Assembly: GCA_961205875.1 (NCBI GenBank)
Contig: OY540810.1
Coordinates: 28,458,001 to 28,522,000 of the forward strand
Length of the DNA: 64,000 bases
Source of the DNA: Sialis fuliginosa
Taxonomy: Eukaryota; Arthropoda; Insecta; Megaloptera; Sialidae
Direction of reading: 5' to 3'
Numbering within the stretch: the stretch's first letter is position 1; every line of letters starts with the position of its first letter. The notes under the pieces were generated by a model. It was not told where the DNA came from. It searched no databases and worked only from the letters and a program-made list of their open reading frames with translations. Shown here one piece after another: positions 2,015 through 39,255 of this stretch. A program made the translations under genes and the position numbers.

Positions 2015-3478
2015 TTAGAGTAATATTTATCACGCAATATAATTACACTCAAGGTTATTTATTCAATATCAAAATTGTTATAGTAGGCGTGGACGTATTC
2101 ATAGGAAGCAGGTGTATTGTTTCCTATCTCCACTGATGGTCAGTATTGGCTTACGAACAAATATTCAACCGGAAACGTATGTTCACTAATTACATTTTTT
2201 GAATTTTTCGAATTATTTTTGAAACGGTGCGCAGTAGAAAAAAATGCTTCATATTAAAGTTGTAGAAAATACTTTTATTCATTAATTCTTATTCTGTTAA
2301 TTTTTCAAATTATTTTTTAAACGGTAGGTATTATTTATAAATAAAAACTAAAATAGTAATTTTAATTTAAAAATAATTTTAGTAATAAAAATAATCTAGT
2401 TGTCTATGAAAAGAAAAGTATTTATTATTACAACTATCAATTAAATAGATGAATAGAAATAATAATATCTAAAACGTGTTGAAATATCAGATAAATAAGA
2501 AGCCTTTGAAAAAGTAACATTTTTGTAAACAAAAAAATTATTATACCGATTTATAATAAAAACAACAATTAATCTAATGTAGTTTATATTCAATTTCTTA
2601 GCAGGAAGTGTTAACTTAAGTAATTTCTTCTGTATAGTGATGTATAAAAAGTCTTATGCCGACCAGGGCAGTTTATTGTACATATACCTATATATTCAAC
2701 TTATTCAATACCAATTTTTATTGAAAAATATTAAAAATTTACAGTTATTTTTAGCCACTACGATTACGTTAGAAAAAATTTTTTATCGGTTCAATAGTCT
2801 TGGAGAAATCGCTGGAACCAAGTCGAAAAAAGTCATTTCGAGAAAAATGCGTTTCAAGTTTTCTAAGGGTCATAACCGGACACACTATCTGTTCTAACTA
2901 AAATGACTGTAAACTTAGGCAATTTTCGGAGTTTTAATTAAATTGGTTTTAAATATTTTTGAATATGTATAATGTATACTTATTTTTTTGTTAGGAGTAT
3001 GTTGAATAATAAATTAACAATATTTTCCATTGACTATTAACATAGAGGTGTGTGCTTATATTCTACAGTAAACATATGTATAATACATACATAAGATTAT
3101 AAATTGATACAGAGAAAATAAAATACATAAGTACAATTTATTTTAACATTCGTCATTTTATTAAATATATAATGGAATATTGCGAATAAAAAATATAAAA
3201 CATATTAAAAAAGTTGAGAAACGCTGACCTTAAATAAAATATATCATACAATTCTAGAAACGTCCTTACTATTATTGGAGGTACCTCAGTGCAAATAAAT
3301 GCTTTTTTAATTTTAAATAAACATTCATTCGAATATTTAACATGAATACTAATTACTAAAATAATAGTCTAATAGGTACAATAAGGTAATATGACAATGT
3401 TATTAGTAATTTCGATTAACTGTAACTTAATCAATAAAAAATATGGCATGATTTAAAAATAAACACACGTTTACATAC

Positions 3479-3740
3479 CTAAACGTTACAGTAACAAAAA
3501 TTACAAAATCCACAAAAATACAGTCAAGAAAATAAATTTTTATTTAAACAATACTAAAGACACATTTTTATAGATTAATAACGAATTTTCATACAATAAG
3601 AATATTATTTTTGTGACTACAGGCGACTAGAACGATTGAAATGTCTAAATAAATTGAAACCAATTGCCAGGCACGTTATGTTTACCATTCCATGAATACT
3701 GAAGGACATATTTCTTAATTGTGAAATGTATTATAGGCAG
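3479..3740 (-). promoter_or_regulatory. Conserved upstream module for gene A: TATA-like box, initiator and non-coding first exon
   Basis: Read on the minus strand, a TATAATA box at 3735-3729 is followed by TTCAGT (A at 3700), then about 220 nt of sequence shared with six paralogous modules, then a splice donor TTTAG|GTATGT at 3478. Exon 0 would be 3479-3700, spliced to the acceptor just before the gene A ATG across about 3.3 kb. The TATA-to-initiator distance, 35 bp, is a little longer than usual. Promoter function is inferred from conservation and signal order only. A second conserved block upstream of it in the duplicated intergenic DNA lies at 2010-2165. Confidence 0.5.
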
Positions 3741-25957: not shown

Positions 25958-27085
25958 AGGGTTCCGAAGAAACCCTATTAATATCGCTTTGTCGTCCGTC
26001 CGTATGTCCGTCCGTCCGTCCGTCCGTCCGTCCGTCCGTCCTTTTCACTCAAAGCTAAATAGCTCGTAAACTATATAAGCTAGAAACTTGAAATTTTTAC
26101 TGAACATGTAAAATGACGCCCTCTAGTAAAATATGTACAAATTTATTGAATAAATAATTTTTCAGGGGGGGCAATAAGGAGCTAAAGCTAGGTAAAAAAA
26201 ATATTTTTTTTTATACCAAGGTATGTGGCACGTTAAAATGTATAACCAAACAAGCGGAATTTGACCCTTTTTTATTTTTTTTCTAAATCAAAAATGGTGC
26301 CTGTAGGGGGCTTTAAAGCAAATCCAAAAAAACAAAAAAATTGTATACCAAGACGTGTGGCACGTCAAAATTTACGTCTCAATTAGTAGAATATGCCCCT
26401 ATTTTTTATTTTTTTTCTAACTCAAAAATGGCGCCTGTAGGGGGCTAAAAGCAGTATTTTATTTTGTCCCCCCCCCTCTAACTCTGTAACTACCGGTTAA
26501 AAAAATCTGAAAAAAATTTGGTAACGAGGTTTTGGTGGGACTACCAACGACAAATACTAAAGTCAATAATATAATTTTAAATTTTGGAATAATAGGGAGG
26601 GGTGTAAGATAATTTAAATTTTTTATTTTCATATCTAGGCATGTGATATGTCAAAATGTACATCTCAACTCGTAAAACATGACCATATTTTTTATTTTTT
26701 TTCTAACTCAAAAATGGCGCCTGTAGGGGGCTAAAAGCAGTGTTTTATTTTGTCCCCCCCCCTCTATTTCTGTAACTACTGGCTCAAAAAATCTGAAAAA
26801 AATTTGGTAACGAGGCTTTGGTAGGACTACCAACGACAAATACTAAAATCAACAATATAATTTGAAATTTTGGAATTATAGGGAGGGGCGTCATAAAAAA
26901 TTGTTTTTTTGATATCTAGGCATGTGGTATGTCAAAATATAGATCTCAATTAGTAGAACTTGACACTTTTTTATATTTTAACTTTAACTTAAAAATGCAC
27001 CTGTAAGTGGTTCCAAACATTTCACGTAGTACGTACTTCGGAACCCTTATGGCATACACTCGTGTATGTCTTGCCCGAATTATTT
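25958..27085. mobile_element. AGGGTTCCGAAG repeat with internal tandem duplication
   Basis: Begins AGGGTTCCGAAGAAACCC and has CTTCGGAACCCTTAT near its far end. A stretch of about 290 bp (from 26400 and again from 26690) is tandemly repeated inside, each unit carrying AAAATGGCGCCTGTAGGGGG and TTTGGTAACGAGG blocks. The paralogous segments upstream of G (near 33960) and I (near 50050) lack the whole insert, giving an empty site between CCTTTTT and ACTTTGGTGAACC. No transposase was found. Confidence 0.7.
25989..26042. repeat. (GTCC)n microsatellite
   Basis: About ten GTCC/CCGT tetranucleotides inside the AGGGTTCCGAAG repeat. The truncated copy at 8968 has only a remnant here, so the array expanded in this copy. 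Confidence 0.85.
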
Positions 27086-33880: not shown

Positions 33881-34721
33881 GATATTTTATCTAAAATATA
33901 CAATGCGGAACATTAAAAATAAATAATATGCATTCGTTTTTATATTTCTACCGAATTCCTTTTTTACCATTAACTTTGGTGAACCGTAAAACATTATATG
34001 GATATTATTTATTTTTAAATTATATAGAGAAATTGATGTGCTCATCAGTTTTTATCAACAAGATAAGAAAAACATAAACTCATAGGTAAAAATGGCTATT
34101 TTTTCCTATATTATATTAAAGCACTTCATTCGAAAAAAAAATACCAAAAACCAAAATTAAAATAAGTGTTTCTTTTTTTGCTCAACATCTACATATGGTG
34201 ATATTTCTGAAAATATGCGTCTTATTACTGGGAACAATATGTATAAGTATCATTATGATACGATTCGGGTGTGTGTGTTGTGTGAGAGAGAGAGACAGAT
34301 GATGTGTTTTATTGTTTATTTTATTTGTAACAATAATAGTAGTATATACAATACAATTTATATACTCATGTATTAGTATATCGTCGTTAAGGGGTCGTCT
34401 GCATCTTGAGTTTGGAGGGCTGTAGACTGACGTGTTGGACGGCGTCGGCGTCCAAGATGCGGTTGAGATGGCGACGGCTGGGCGTCGTGTAGAGGGGTCA
34501 CGCGGGAGGTGACCACGAAAGCCTGGGCGTCGTGAGCGACGGCGGGGGCGTCGACGTGTTGAGCGTCGACGTGTTAAGCGTCCGTGAGCGCGCCTGGAGG
34601 CGATGTCCGAGGGCGGACCTGGAGATAGCGTCCAAGGGCGGCGGTGCGGGCGTCGGCGTCTTGAGAGGCGGCAAGAGTTGACCTGGTGTCGGAAACTCAG
34701 GAAGTTTTATGGATATCAACA

Positions 34722-37700
34722 ATGACTGTTAGCTAGCAGGGCGCATCTAATAAGCGGTCCTGTAGCCATGTAACAATCGTTTTGGTCTATCAAATTAAGA
34801 TTGTTGACTAGCAGGGCGCATCTAATAAGCGGTCCTGTAGCCGTGTAACAATCGTTTTTAGGTCTATCGAATTGTGATTGTTGACTAGCAGGGCGCATTT
34901 AATAAGCGGTCCTGTAGCCGTGTAACAATCGTTTTAGGTCTATCAAATTGTGATTGTTGACTAGCAGGGCGCATCTAATAAGAGGTCCTGTAGCCGTGTA
35001 ACAATCGTTTTTAGGTCTATCGAATTGTGATTGTTGACTAGCAGGGCGCATCTAATAAGCGGTCCTATAGCCGTGTAACAATCGTTTTTAGGTCTATCGA
35101 ATTGTGATTGTTGACTAGCAGGGCGCATCTAATAAGCGGTCCTGTAGCCGTGTAACAATCGTTTTAGGTCTACCAAATTGTGATTTTTGACTAGCAGGGC
35201 GCATCTAATAAGAGGTCCTGTAGCCGTGTAACAATCGTTTTTAGGTCTATCGAATTGTGATTGTTGACTAGCAGGGCGCATCTAATAAGCGGTCCTGTAG
35301 CCGTGTAACAATCGTTTTAGGTCTATCAAATTGTGATTGTTGACTAGCAGGGCGCATCTAATAAGCGGTCCTATAGCCGTGTAACAATCGTTTTAGGTCT
35401 ACCAAATTGTGATTTTTGACTAGCAGGGCGCATCTAATAAGAGGTCTTGTAACCGTGTAACAATCGTTTTAGTTCTATCAAATTGTGATTGTTGACTAGC
35501 AGGGCGCATCTAATAAGCGATCCTGTAGCCGTGTAACAATCGTTTTAGGTCTATCAAATTGTGATTATTGACTAGCAGGGCGCATCTAATAAGCGGTCCT
35601 GTAGCCGTGTAACAATCGTTTTTAGGTCTATCGAATTGTGATTGTTGACTAGCAGGGCGCATTTAATAAGCGGTCCTGTAGCCGTGTAACAATCGTTTTA
35701 GGTCTATCAAATTGTGATTATTGACTAGCAGGGCGCATCTAATAAGCGGTCCTGTAGCCGTGTAACAATCGTTTTAGGTCTATCAAATTGTGATTGTTGA
35801 CTAGCAGGGCGCATCTAATAAGCGGTCCTGTAGCCGTGTAACAATCGTTTTAGGTCTATCAAATTGTGATTATTGACTAGCAGGGCGCATCTAATAAGCG
35901 GTCCTGTAGCCGTGTAACAATCGTTTTTAGGTCTATCGAATTGTGATTGTTGACTAGCAGGGCGCATTTAATAAGCGGTCCTGTAGCCGTGTAACAATCG
36001 TTTTAGGTCTATCAAATTGTGATTGTTGACTAGCAGGGCGTATCTAATAAGCGGTCCTATAGCCGTGTAACAATCGTTTTAGGTCTACCAAATTGTGATT
36101 TTTGACTAGCAGGGCGCATCTAATAAGCGGTCCTGTAGCCGTGTAACAATCGTTTTAGGTCTATCAAATTGTGATTGTTGACTAGCAGGGCGCATCTAAT
36201 AAGCGGTCCTGTAGCCGTGTAACAATCGTTTTAGGTCTATCAAATTGTGATTATTGACTAGCAGGGCGCATCTAATAAGCGGTCCTATAGCCGTGTAACA
36301 ATCGTTTTAGGTCTACCAAATTGTGATTTTTGACTAGCAGGGCGCATCTAATAAGAGGTCTTGTAACCGTGTAACAATCGTTTTAGTTCTATCAAATTGT
36401 GATTGTTGACTAGCAGGGCGCATCTAATAAGCGATCCTGTAGCCGTGTAACAATCGTTTTAGGTCTATCAAATTGTGATTATTGACTAGCAGGGCGCATC
36501 TAATAAGCGGTCCTGTAGCCGTGTAACAATCGTTTTTAGGTCTATCGAATTGTGATTGTTGACTAGCAGGGCGCATTTAATAAGCGGTCCTGTAGCCGTG
36601 TAACAATCGTTTTAGGTCTATCAAATTGTGATTATTGACTAGCAGGGCGCATCTAATAAGCGGTCCTGTAGCGGTGTAACAATCGTTTTAGGTCTATCAA
36701 ATTGTGATTGTTGACTAGCAGGGCGCATCTAATAAGCGGTCCTGTAGCCGTGTAACAATCGTTTTTAGGTCTATCGAATTGTGATTGTTGACTAGCAGGG
36801 CGCATTTAATAAGCGGTCCTGTAGCCGTGTAACAATCGTTTTAGGTCTATCAAATTGTGATTGTTGACTAGCAGGGCGCATCTAATAAGCGGTCCTATAG
36901 CCGTGTAACAATCGTTTTAGGTCTACCAAATTGTGATTTTTGACTAGCAGGGCGCATCTAATAAGCGGTCCTGTAGCCGTGTAACAATCGTTTTAGGTCT
37001 ATCAAATTGTGATTGTTGACTAGCAGGGCGCATCTAATAAGCGGTCCTGTAGCCGTGTAACAATCGTTTTAGGTCTATCAAATTGTGATTATTGACTAGC
37101 AGGGCGCATCTAATAAGCGGTCCTGTAGCCGTGTAACAATCGTTTTTAGGTCTATCGAATTGTGATTGTTGACTAGCAGGGCGCATTTAATAAGTGGTCC
37201 TGTAGCCGTGTAACAATCGTTTTAGGTCTATCAAATTGTGATTGTTGACTAGCAGGGCGCATCTAATAAGTGGTCCTATAGCCGTGTAACAATCGTTTTA
37301 GGTCTATCAAATTGTGATTGTTGACTAGCAGGGCGCATCTAATAAGCGATCCTGTAGCCGTGTAACAATCGTTTTAGGTCTATCAAATTGTGATTATTGA
37401 CTAGCAGGGCGCATCTAATAAGCGGTCCTGTAGCCGTGTAACAATCGTTTTTAGGTCTATCGAATTGTGATTGTTGACTAGCAGGGCGCATTTAATAAGC
37501 GGTCCTGTAGCCGTGTAACAATCGTTTTAGGTCTATCAAATTGTGATTGTTGACTAGCAGGGCGCATCTAATAAGCGGTCCTGTAGCCGTGTAACAATCG
37601 TTTTAGGTCTATCAAATTGTGATTGTTGACTAGCAGGGCGCATCTAATAAGCGGTCCTGTAGCCGTGTAACAATCGTTTTAGGTCTATCAAATTGTGATT

Positions 37701-38075
37701 GTTGACTAGCAGGGCGCATCTAATAAGCGGTCCTGTAGCCGTGTAACAATCGTTTTAGGTCTATCAAATTGTGATTGTTGACTAGCAGGGCGCATCTAAT
37801 AAGCGGTCCTATAGCCGTGTAACAATCGTTTTAGGTCTACCAAATTGTGATTTTTGACTAGCAGGGCGCATCTAATAAGAGGTCTTGTAACCGTGTAACA
37901 ATCGTTTTAGTTCTATCAAATTGTGATTGTTGACTAGCAGGGCGCATCTAATAAGCGATCCTGTAGCCGTGTAACAATCGTTTTAGGTCTATCAAATTGT
38001 GATTATTGACTAGCAGGGCGCATCTAATAAGCGGTCCTGTAGCCGTGTAACAATCGTTTTGGTCTATCGAATTAG
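34722..38075. repeat. Minisatellite: about 44 tandem copies of a 76-77 bp unit
   Basis: Each unit contains GACTAGCAGGGCGCATCTAA, then a GCGGTCCTGTAGCCGTG block, ACAATCGTTTTAGGTC and GATTGT. ACAATC and GATTGT are inverted and could form a stem around a loop of about 21 nt. Units differ at a few diagnostic sites, such as GGTCCTATAG versus GGTCCTGTAG. The marker GAGGTCTTGTAACC recurs at 35441, 36355 and 37879, spacings of 12 and 20 units, so blocks of many units were copied together. Both edge units are diverged. Confidence 0.95.
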
Positions 38076-38129
38076 AACCAGTCAGTAGTCTATCAAATGG
38101 CTGAGCTGGTCAGTGAGACTTGGAGTGAG

Positions 38130-38245
38130 TCTGATTTGTTTTAAAAATCCTCCAGCTTATATACGCAAATTTCCTTCTCAGGTGCGCGCAGGGTGCAGAG
38201 GGAGAACTTTAAGTCGGGGGGTAGTCCTGGGCCCATGACGTCACG
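38130..38245 (-). promoter_or_regulatory. Promoter-like region of the minisatellite element (CRE, TATA, initiator)
   Basis: On the minus strand: a perfect CRE palindrome TGACGTCA at 38243-38236, TATATAAG with its first T at 38163, and AATCAGACTC with its A at 38132, giving a textbook 31-bp TATA-to-start spacing. Transcription would run into the minisatellite and reach the AATAAA cluster near 34320. Activity is inferred from motif order only. Confidence 0.55.
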
Positions 38246-39255
38246 TCTAAATTTTCGGAAATGACCTACCGCCGTTTAAAACGAGTGCTGTGTTACGCAC
38301 TACATAGTGTGTAGGTAAGGTGTGCAGCGGGGGTAGGTGTGTGCGTATGTGTTGGTGGCTGCAGGCGCCGTGAGTCGCCCGTGCTCTGACTGTTGTGTAC
38401 ATGTGGATGCAATAAAAAAACCTCTTGAAAGACTTCTGGCGAAGGGTCGCTTGTTGTTTCTTGACCGCTTCGATTATTGCATCTTTAAGATGTGGTACAA
38501 AAATGCATTTTAACAGAATACTATGTATTTTGTTCAGAGGCGTCTCAATTCTCATGAACAAAATACTTTGCATTCTGTTCAGTGGCGTATCAATTACTAT
38601 TGGAATTATTTAGAAGTTTATATGAAACTATGTTTTTGTTTCCTGAACTATAATACAAATTCCACAATATTATATTTAATAAGCAACGAAAGTTTGAACA
38701 TAAATCTCTTTATTCTTTATTTTGAATAAATCCCCAAAAAATGAGGAAGCCCATTTACATTTTACTAAATTTTATAAAATTGTTAAGGAATATTTTATGT
38801 TAATATATAAAAAATGTTTCCCACTTTCATTTTTCTGGATATGTCCCTGATTTGTTTTAGCTAAAACGATTATATGAGAGTAATAGTTATCCCACAATAT
38901 TATTAGACTCAATGTTATTTATTCAATATCAAAACTATAATCATAGGCATGGCCGTATTCAGAGGACGCACTTCTGTTGCTTCTCCTCCCCTTCTAATAA
39001 CTGATAATAGCTTATAAACAAATATTTTTCAAATCTTATTACATTAATAAAATCGGTTTTCTGGTTTTTTTTACAGTGTTTCTGCAAATAAATCTAATCT
39101 TACCCCTCTCCTCCGACACCTGCGGTGCTTTCGGCACTTACAATATTCTAAAATGTACTCTCCAATAAAAAAAGTTTGCCGACCGCTGCTCTACTATATT
39201 CTCAAATTTAATACCTAATTATAACCGATTTTAAAATTAACACATTTTTACATAC

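Follow-up and report, generated by a model that had tools for sequence, protein, structure and literature searches.

A predicted tandem RNA hairpin array in a solo long terminal repeat of a Ty3/gypsy family of Sialis fuliginosa

Tandem repeats carried by retrotransposons with long terminal repeats (LTRs) have been described in several organisms, at different places within the element. According to the passages of the cited papers that deal with them, the mouse minisatellites Ms6-hm and Hm-2 lie in the LTRs of MaLR elements (Kelly 1994, by way of PMC9659126; Ms6-hm also PMC6947457), and the minisatellites of soybean Gmr9/GmOgre, which a table in PMC9659126 classifies as Ty3/gypsy-associated, are polymorphic, reach up to 149 repeats per locus and comprise several unit families (PMC3305785). 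In the Drosophila elements gypsy, ZAM, Tirant and Idefix, polymorphic tandem repeats with cis-regulatory roles are found in the leader before gag (PMC8872304, in the part that treats them). Minisatellites in LTRs are known, but the review passages that mention them place them among the things that transposable elements give rise to, rather than among their functional parts. The present work concerns a 4337-bp insert at 34256..38592, on the minus strand, of a 64,000-nucleotide stretch of the Sialis fuliginosa genome (contig OY540810.1; the whole stretch is called the window, and coordinates without a prefix refer to it). We identify the insert as a solo LTR of a Ty3/gypsy-type family; most of its length is a tandem array of a predicted hairpin.

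The family resembles other Ty3/gypsy elements (Metaviridae) in its TG...CA LTRs, its 4-bp target duplication, its primer binding site (PBS) and polypurine tract (PPT), its gag, the order of its reverse transcriptase (RT), ribonuclease H (RNase H) and integrase, and its decay to solo LTRs, and differs in that the window LTR is 4.3 kb long and consists mostly of hairpin minisatellite in the predicted R, the LTR part that is present at both ends of the genomic RNA. It shares with the mouse MaLR minisatellites the growth of a minisatellite inside an LTR, but MaLR, which is ERVL-related, belongs to another LTR superfamily, and the passages on these loci describe no hairpin cassettes swapped between promoter classes. 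The soybean minisatellites, in the passages on them, occupy the interval from the coding region to the LTR, whereas those described here are within the LTR, and the fly repeats lie in the 5' untranslated region (5'-UTR) and are described, in the part of PMC8872304 concerned, as protein-bound DNA elements. The family thus differs from the known cases in having several alternative hairpin cassettes inside the LTR, together with signs of selection on structure. Among the titles and abstract openings that searches of the open-licence PMC literature listed, none describes R-region hairpin cassettes for a Ty3/gypsy LTR of an animal, which is weak evidence of novelty. The explanation which we think rather probable is that the insert is a solo Ty3/gypsy LTR with a selected tandem RNA hairpin cassette in R, whose array later grew locally. 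Three unlike hairpins at one LTR site, shuffled between promoters, would constitute a testable selected module of tandem RNA structure, and arrays in R are candidate engines of LTR length change and minisatellite birth.

A solo LTR of a Ty3/gypsy family

The insert consists of a single LTR with TG...CA ends and an exact target duplication, and the internal region is absent. The terminal sequences are TGATACG (34256-34262) and CGTATCA (38586-38592), and the ATTA duplication, which has no strand, occupies 34252..34255 on the left and 38593..38596 on the right; these borders had been proposed before any genome search and are exact, and related insertions end alike. The original prediction had named a failure to find other copies with the same borders as a possible refutation, and such copies were found. 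A search of the genome (392 Mb in 20 contigs) with the LTR end part produced 195 first-look candidates, of which 40 were scored as matches, a lower bound which counts the window and both LTRs of pairs. Several matches form same-strand pairs 2.4-2.7 kb apart, and at six loci two same-strand LTRs have 0-1 mismatches between them. Five of these loci (L009, L010, L011, L012 and L014) are plain, complete two-LTR elements with LTRs of 957-1427 bp, a PBS directly after the 5' LTR and a PPT before the 3' LTR, and at the sixth, L013, the two LTRs lie inside a local tandem duplication. The junction of the LTR end and the PBS, CGTATCAAGTGKCGCCC, has 14 exact matches in the genome, against none for the reversed control.

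An exact 4-bp target duplication is present in 18 of the 19 insertions in which both outer ends are readable, the window included; the exception is L018 (AACC/AAAC), and 13 of the 19 are solo LTRs. The places left out of this count are those whose outer end is missing, mutated or beyond the fetched stretch (L021-L023, L029-L037, L039-L045, L053 and L054), short cuts of places already counted (L001-L008) and places found by the PBS string (L046-L052). These results, with the coding relatives described below, establish that the insert is a solo LTR and that its family belongs to the Ty3/gypsy LTR retrotransposons. The suggestion that it might be an exceptionally long solo LTR is borne out by the existence in the genome of elements with two such LTRs, a PBS and a PPT; the alternative offered with it, by which an undescribed non-autonomous element spreads a tandem array, does not hold for the window copy, although LTRs with few hairpin units do occur on recent gag-only elements.

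The assignment to Ty3/gypsy is provided by coding relatives. A relative on contig C14, read as separate pieces of one copy (L029, L034 and L033, of which L034 and L033 were searched apart), contains RT, RNase H and integrase domains in that order by Pfam. The best solved-structure matches of its RT are 7q5b (Ty3-G Gag-Pol) and 4ol8, which is labelled only as reverse transcriptase/ribonuclease H and which we take to be Ty3; no protease domain was found among Pfam families at E 0.01 in L034:322-819. Open gag frames, measured from stop to stop, have 447 codons in L009, 494 in L010, 485 in L011 and 399 in L014, and the two that were scanned, those of L010 and L009, match Retrotrans_gag. Arc capsid Pfam models also match these two frames, mostly under the curated cut-off. 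The gag-only proteins share 44-47% identity with a gag piece of a further relative, L035. In all six pairs of the four gag-only loci the ratio of nonsynonymous to synonymous change (dN/dS) is 0.19-0.36, a pattern by which the four frames are judged to be under purifying selection.

These four elements have two LTRs, a PBS, a PPT, gag as the sole open reading frame (ORF) and a short internal region, and in this they resemble TR-GAG elements, which are short LTR elements with gag as their sole ORF; the difference is that the TR-GAG literature found is all on plants. They have recently transposed, since their LTR pairs are identical or nearly so, and their enzymes are presumably supplied in trans. 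The traits of other small elements were also sought. No Rfam ribozyme, and hence no hammerhead as in retrozymes, was found in 34200-38650 at E values up to 1 or, at gathering score, in L010, L031 and L029, and Rfam found no 5S-rRNA-like sequence of the Cassandra type in the window insert or in these three relatives. A known small RNA in the repeat unit was considered and rejected: the sole Rfam hit in 34200-38650 is CsrC, at 15.5 bits against a gathering score of 61, and the relatives L010, L031 and L029 have none.

The order of features along the minus strand of the insert is LTR-like, and the signals named in the original prediction (a cAMP response element or CRE, a TATA box, an initiator-like CAGACT and AATAAA signals) are all located on that strand. 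The predicted U3, or promoter part (38134..38592, with a boundary placed from the TATA box and the initiator), is 93% identical to the LTR of the C14 gag-pol relative (L029) and includes a CRE-like TGACGTCA at 38236..38243, which is a consensus match only, and a TATA box, read from the sequence as TATATAAG, at 38156..38163. A TATA match lies upstream of the cassette site in 26 of the 26 LTR entries compared, and L030, which is outside that set, reads TATACAA. The initiator-like CAGACT, taken as the predicted start of R, occupies 38128..38133 and begins 30 bases 3' of the first T of the TATA box. It is followed by the array (34733..38073) and by a C-rich part, comprising the end of R and U5, which is common to the family (34256..34732; 79-88% identical to the other 39 scored places) and which contains two AATAAA signals, at 34320..34325 and 34308..34313, 70 and 58 bases before the LTR end. 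The placement of the array in R is a prediction from the TATA box, the initiator and the AATAAA signals. A putative promoter, R and polyadenylation signal in one unit would fit any solo LTR, and the lack of a recognised protein in the insert, on which no protein search was made, agrees with an LTR that lacks its internal region.

The primer was sought in two ways: a typed tRNA-Lys-like 3' pattern had no match in the genome, and ARAGORN found no tRNA in the 6 places examined of the 17 that contain CCCCACGTTCGGGCG. By eye, the examined places resemble leaders of other retroelements. The PBS-like string is also present in six other leader-like places (L047-L052), three of them nearly identical, which are apparently other retroelements that use the same primer. 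Three further observations concern individual copies. L013 (C7:7676000-7685900) contains a duplicated flank, a partial LTR, an internal region and an LTR; C6:7740987-7747021 contains three LTR matches spaced by about 2.9 kb; and nt 963-3698 of L037, in the reverse of the locus, form a 912-codon open frame whose family is unassigned.

Hairpin cassettes and promoter classes

The LTRs of the family have one cassette site, which lies 3' of the predicted start and 5' of the shared end part and is occupied by a tandem unit of type A, B or C or by none. Type A, with a period of 74-79 bp, is found in the window, L013-L018, L029, L033, L038-L042 and L044; type B, with a period of about 71-84 bp, in L011, L022, L025-L027, L030-L032, L043 and L054; and type C, with a period of 70 or 98 bp, in L009, L010, L019, L020 and L053. 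L012, L024 and L028 have LTRs without a cassette. The three types are unlike in sequence and have no evident long motif in common, as judged by eye and without a motif search. Exact counts of the core patterns in the genome are 171 for A (with 13 for the A78 subset and 21 for the A74 linker), 57 for B and 40 for C, and the reversed controls give 0. The array of the window (34733-38073) has a period of 76, 43.9 copies and 95% matches, and parsing resolves it into 44 units of 76-77 bp, in agreement with the roughly 44 copies first counted; each unit is a 55-nt hairpin plus a linker of 20-22 nt, and the first hairpin in transcript order is at 38001..38055. Of the 15 type A LTRs that were parsed, 13 have 3-8 units, and the two that have 44 (the window) and 55 (L018) are both solo. 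The pattern places considered include all of those of the other types and 100 of the 171 for type A, and a further giant type A array is possible.

The U3 sequences fall into four classes. Class 1 is found with type A (window, L029, L041), with type B (L030-L032) and with type C (L053, whose U3 is 86% identical to that of the window and which has four type C hairpins); L030, dropped from the U3 comparison without a TATA match, is classed by other alignments. Class 2 is found with type A (L013-L018, L038 and L044, and, by separate comparison, L039 and L040), with type C (L009, L010, L019, L020) and with type B (L054, whose U3 is 97% identical to that of L010 and which has three type B hairpins). 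Judged from match coordinates only, C13:168371, C5:20683996 and C6:25117479 look like further places of these kinds. Class 3 was found with type B only, and class 4 without a cassette. Since both promoter classes 1 and 2 occur with all three cassette types, cassettes have been exchanged, and the exchange itself is visible as mosaic LTRs. With gap columns left out, the part of the window LTR ahead of the array shares 91% identity with L029 and 67-69% with seven type A LTRs of class 2, and the part after the array is 88-93% identical to the same seven and 83% to L029; the units of the window have the A76 form, like those of class 2, and those of L029 and L041 have the A78 form. Judged by these identities, the window copy is a mosaic.

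L045 was considered as a case of unequal unit numbers within one element and set aside as uninformative, the match of its 3' LTR stopping inside the array; the match (nt 2964-3556) ends within a type C hairpin array in a breakpoint-like manner. Other short inverted repeats are also present in the LTR leaders. Directly after the predicted start, leaders such as those of L014, L011 and L012 contain short inverted repeats like CTCCTTCGGGAG, which are themselves repeated two or three times in some LTRs, and the class-1 LTRs have a different short hairpin, AGACT..AGTCT, after the predicted start. Folding in context joins the CTCC..GGAG stems to one another instead of closing each one locally. By eye, an unpaired 5' stretch in each of the A, B and C hairpins is followed by CCGC, which lies within the upper stem or immediately ahead of it, a position which may reflect either chance or a common recognition feature.

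Folding, covariation and constraint of the hairpin

The repeat had been predicted to be structured by virtue of a small stem, ACAATC/GATTGT, in each unit. The idea of a structured repeat is supported and extended by the present analysis; the stem size is not, since the predicted hairpin takes up 55 nt of each unit. Compared with shuffled sequences, the folding z-scores of the cores (55-60 nt) on the transcribed strand are -3.60 for A76, -3.78 for A78, -3.90 for B and -1.36 for C, and those of the complement are -2.62, -0.86, -1.15 and +0.31, respectively, so that in each of the four units the better fold is that of the transcribed strand.

Covariation was evaluated on distinct hairpins. In type A (18 hairpins, giant arrays excluded), 97.4% of 270 cells pair, and compensatory changes are found in 3 of 15 pairs (G-C to A-U, C-G to U-A and A-U to G-C), a count which omits four upper pairs, where the 76- and 78-bp forms align ambiguously; cells in which both sides have changed number 12, against a shuffled mean of 3.3 (0 of 500 shuffles). 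In type B (22 hairpins), pairing holds in 95.7% of 439 cells, compensatory change is found in 1 of 20 pairs, and both-side-changed cells number 5 against a shuffled mean of 1.5 (0/500). When the partner columns are slid, pairing falls to 23-53% in type A and to 31-50% in type B. Constraint was measured on 42 type A76 units from 9 loci, with giant arrays and terminal units left out and edits counted against the commonest form: 7 edits fall in 2310 hairpin bases, compared with 164 in 798 linker bases, a ratio which overstates the number of events, because the linker edits mostly belong to a few inherited linker types. By variable columns, for type A76 outside the giant arrays, the comparison is 4 of 55 in the hairpin and 12 of 22 in the linker (Fisher p 1.7e-5, with columns that are not independent). 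The type A hairpin thus shows, on alignment of its units, a structure-like conservation beside a drifting spacer.

Along with the inherited linker types, a number of results weigh against a selected RNA hairpin. The fold of type C is not significant at the z-score given above, and sliding-window scans of five LTRs reveal no general excess of structure on the sense strand, with sense/antisense counts of windows at z < -2 of 10/5, 3/5, 3/3, 1/4 and 1/2. The number of pairs with both sides changed does not exceed that in shuffles (122/500 for A and 435/500 for B), in type A because the changes sit in few lineages, and the same is true of the number of pair types (486/500 for A and 435/500 for B). 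In type B a slide of +1 gives 3 both-side-changed pairs (3 cells) against 1 in the true register, and in type A a slide of -3 gives 8 both-side-changed cells against 12; the covariation is based on few independent changes. In the giant arrays, edits in hairpin and linker are 48/2365 and 32/903 for the window and 13/2970 and 31/1134 for L018, and variable columns are 9/55 and 9/22 (p 0.035) and 7/55 and 9/21 (p 0.009), respectively; the hairpin is still less variable than the linker, and any loss of constraint would therefore be partial or recent. Stem changes that keep the pair, compared with those that give an A-C break, stand at 8:1 outside the giant arrays and 8:5 inside, numbers that are small. 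Finally, the cassette is not indispensable, given that LTRs without one exist and that the LTR pair of one of them, L012, is identical.

Array growth and competing explanations

The units of the window array are closest to one another, with a nearest-unit distance of 0.28 edits within the array compared with 1.84 to L018 and 1.86 to L014. A three-unit block (ABC) recurs at unit positions 1, 21 and 33, and a decayed form of the hairpin, with a predicted energy of -5.3 against -18.0 kcal/mol, is present in 3 units. L018 has internal duplications of its own, different from these. On this pattern the window array is probably the product of private growth after insertion; growth in an earlier donor element is possible instead. 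Growth after insertion under relaxed constraint is suggested because the duplications are private and the decayed hairpin has itself been multiplied. The window copy would have come under weaker constraint either when it inserted or when its internal region was lost; unequal exchange or replication slippage would then have duplicated units locally and brought the array to 44.

The favoured explanation supposes that the two LTRs of a complete element recombined and left the solo LTR, as suggested by the exact target duplication and the complete relatives, and that selection has kept the hairpin of the tandem cassette, just 3' of the predicted transcription start, because it serves the RNA of the element, most plausibly as a site which the element's Gag recognises in packaging or dimerisation. 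A cassette that is both repeated and in R could change in copy number, through misalignment at the first strand transfer, and be swapped between elements by template switching in reverse transcription. We infer that the cassette works as RNA, is recognised by Gag and moves by template switching. A bolder form of this proposal, which we consider rather unlikely, makes the hairpin an exchangeable RNA module in R, recognised for packaging or dimerisation by the Gag that the gag-only elements themselves encode, swapped between promoter classes and dosed by copy number, with the giant solo arrays as producers of decoy RNA.

The simplest competitor, doubtful in our estimation but to be taken seriously, is an ordinary LTR-borne minisatellite, in which hairpin-prone DNA expands by replication errors or unequal exchange with no function for the element, and in which the compensatory changes come from template switching within an inverted repeat instead of from selection. 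The mouse MaLR minisatellites are a precedent, so far as the passages on them go (PMC9659126, PMC6947457), both giant arrays found lie in solo LTRs with private internal duplications, and the compensatory events are few; yet different LTRs have one or another of three unlike hairpins at a common site, a near-invariant hairpin beside variable linkers across loci is not expected of neutral slippage, and the transcribed strand folds better than its complement. This last bias, together with the compensatory pair changes, points to RNA, and it is improbable that the cassette acts as DNA, as a set of repeated binding sites for a host protein (an insulator or enhancer) like those of the gypsy, ZAM and Idefix 5'-UTRs. 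The fly repeats have the same general place, after the start and before gag, and the same tandem polymorphic layout, and insulator and enhancer functions are reported for them in the part of PMC8872304 on these repeats, but they sit in the 5'-UTR, and the absence by eye of a long motif common to A, B and C, for which no motif search was made, is not what shared binding sites would suggest. It is very improbable that the host has taken over the solo LTR as a non-coding RNA gene whose product is a hairpin-array RNA: such a gene would have its promoter-like signals, array and polyadenylation signals together on one strand, as this unit does, but the same parts are common to the LTRs of the family, the array has the decayed hairpins and weaker constraint described above, and no Rfam family reaches its gathering score, CsrC falling far below its own.

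Outside the insert, the window has further tandem repeats at 26212-27005 and 25993-26041, where units of 134 and 286 bp and a stretch of (CGTC)n are found.

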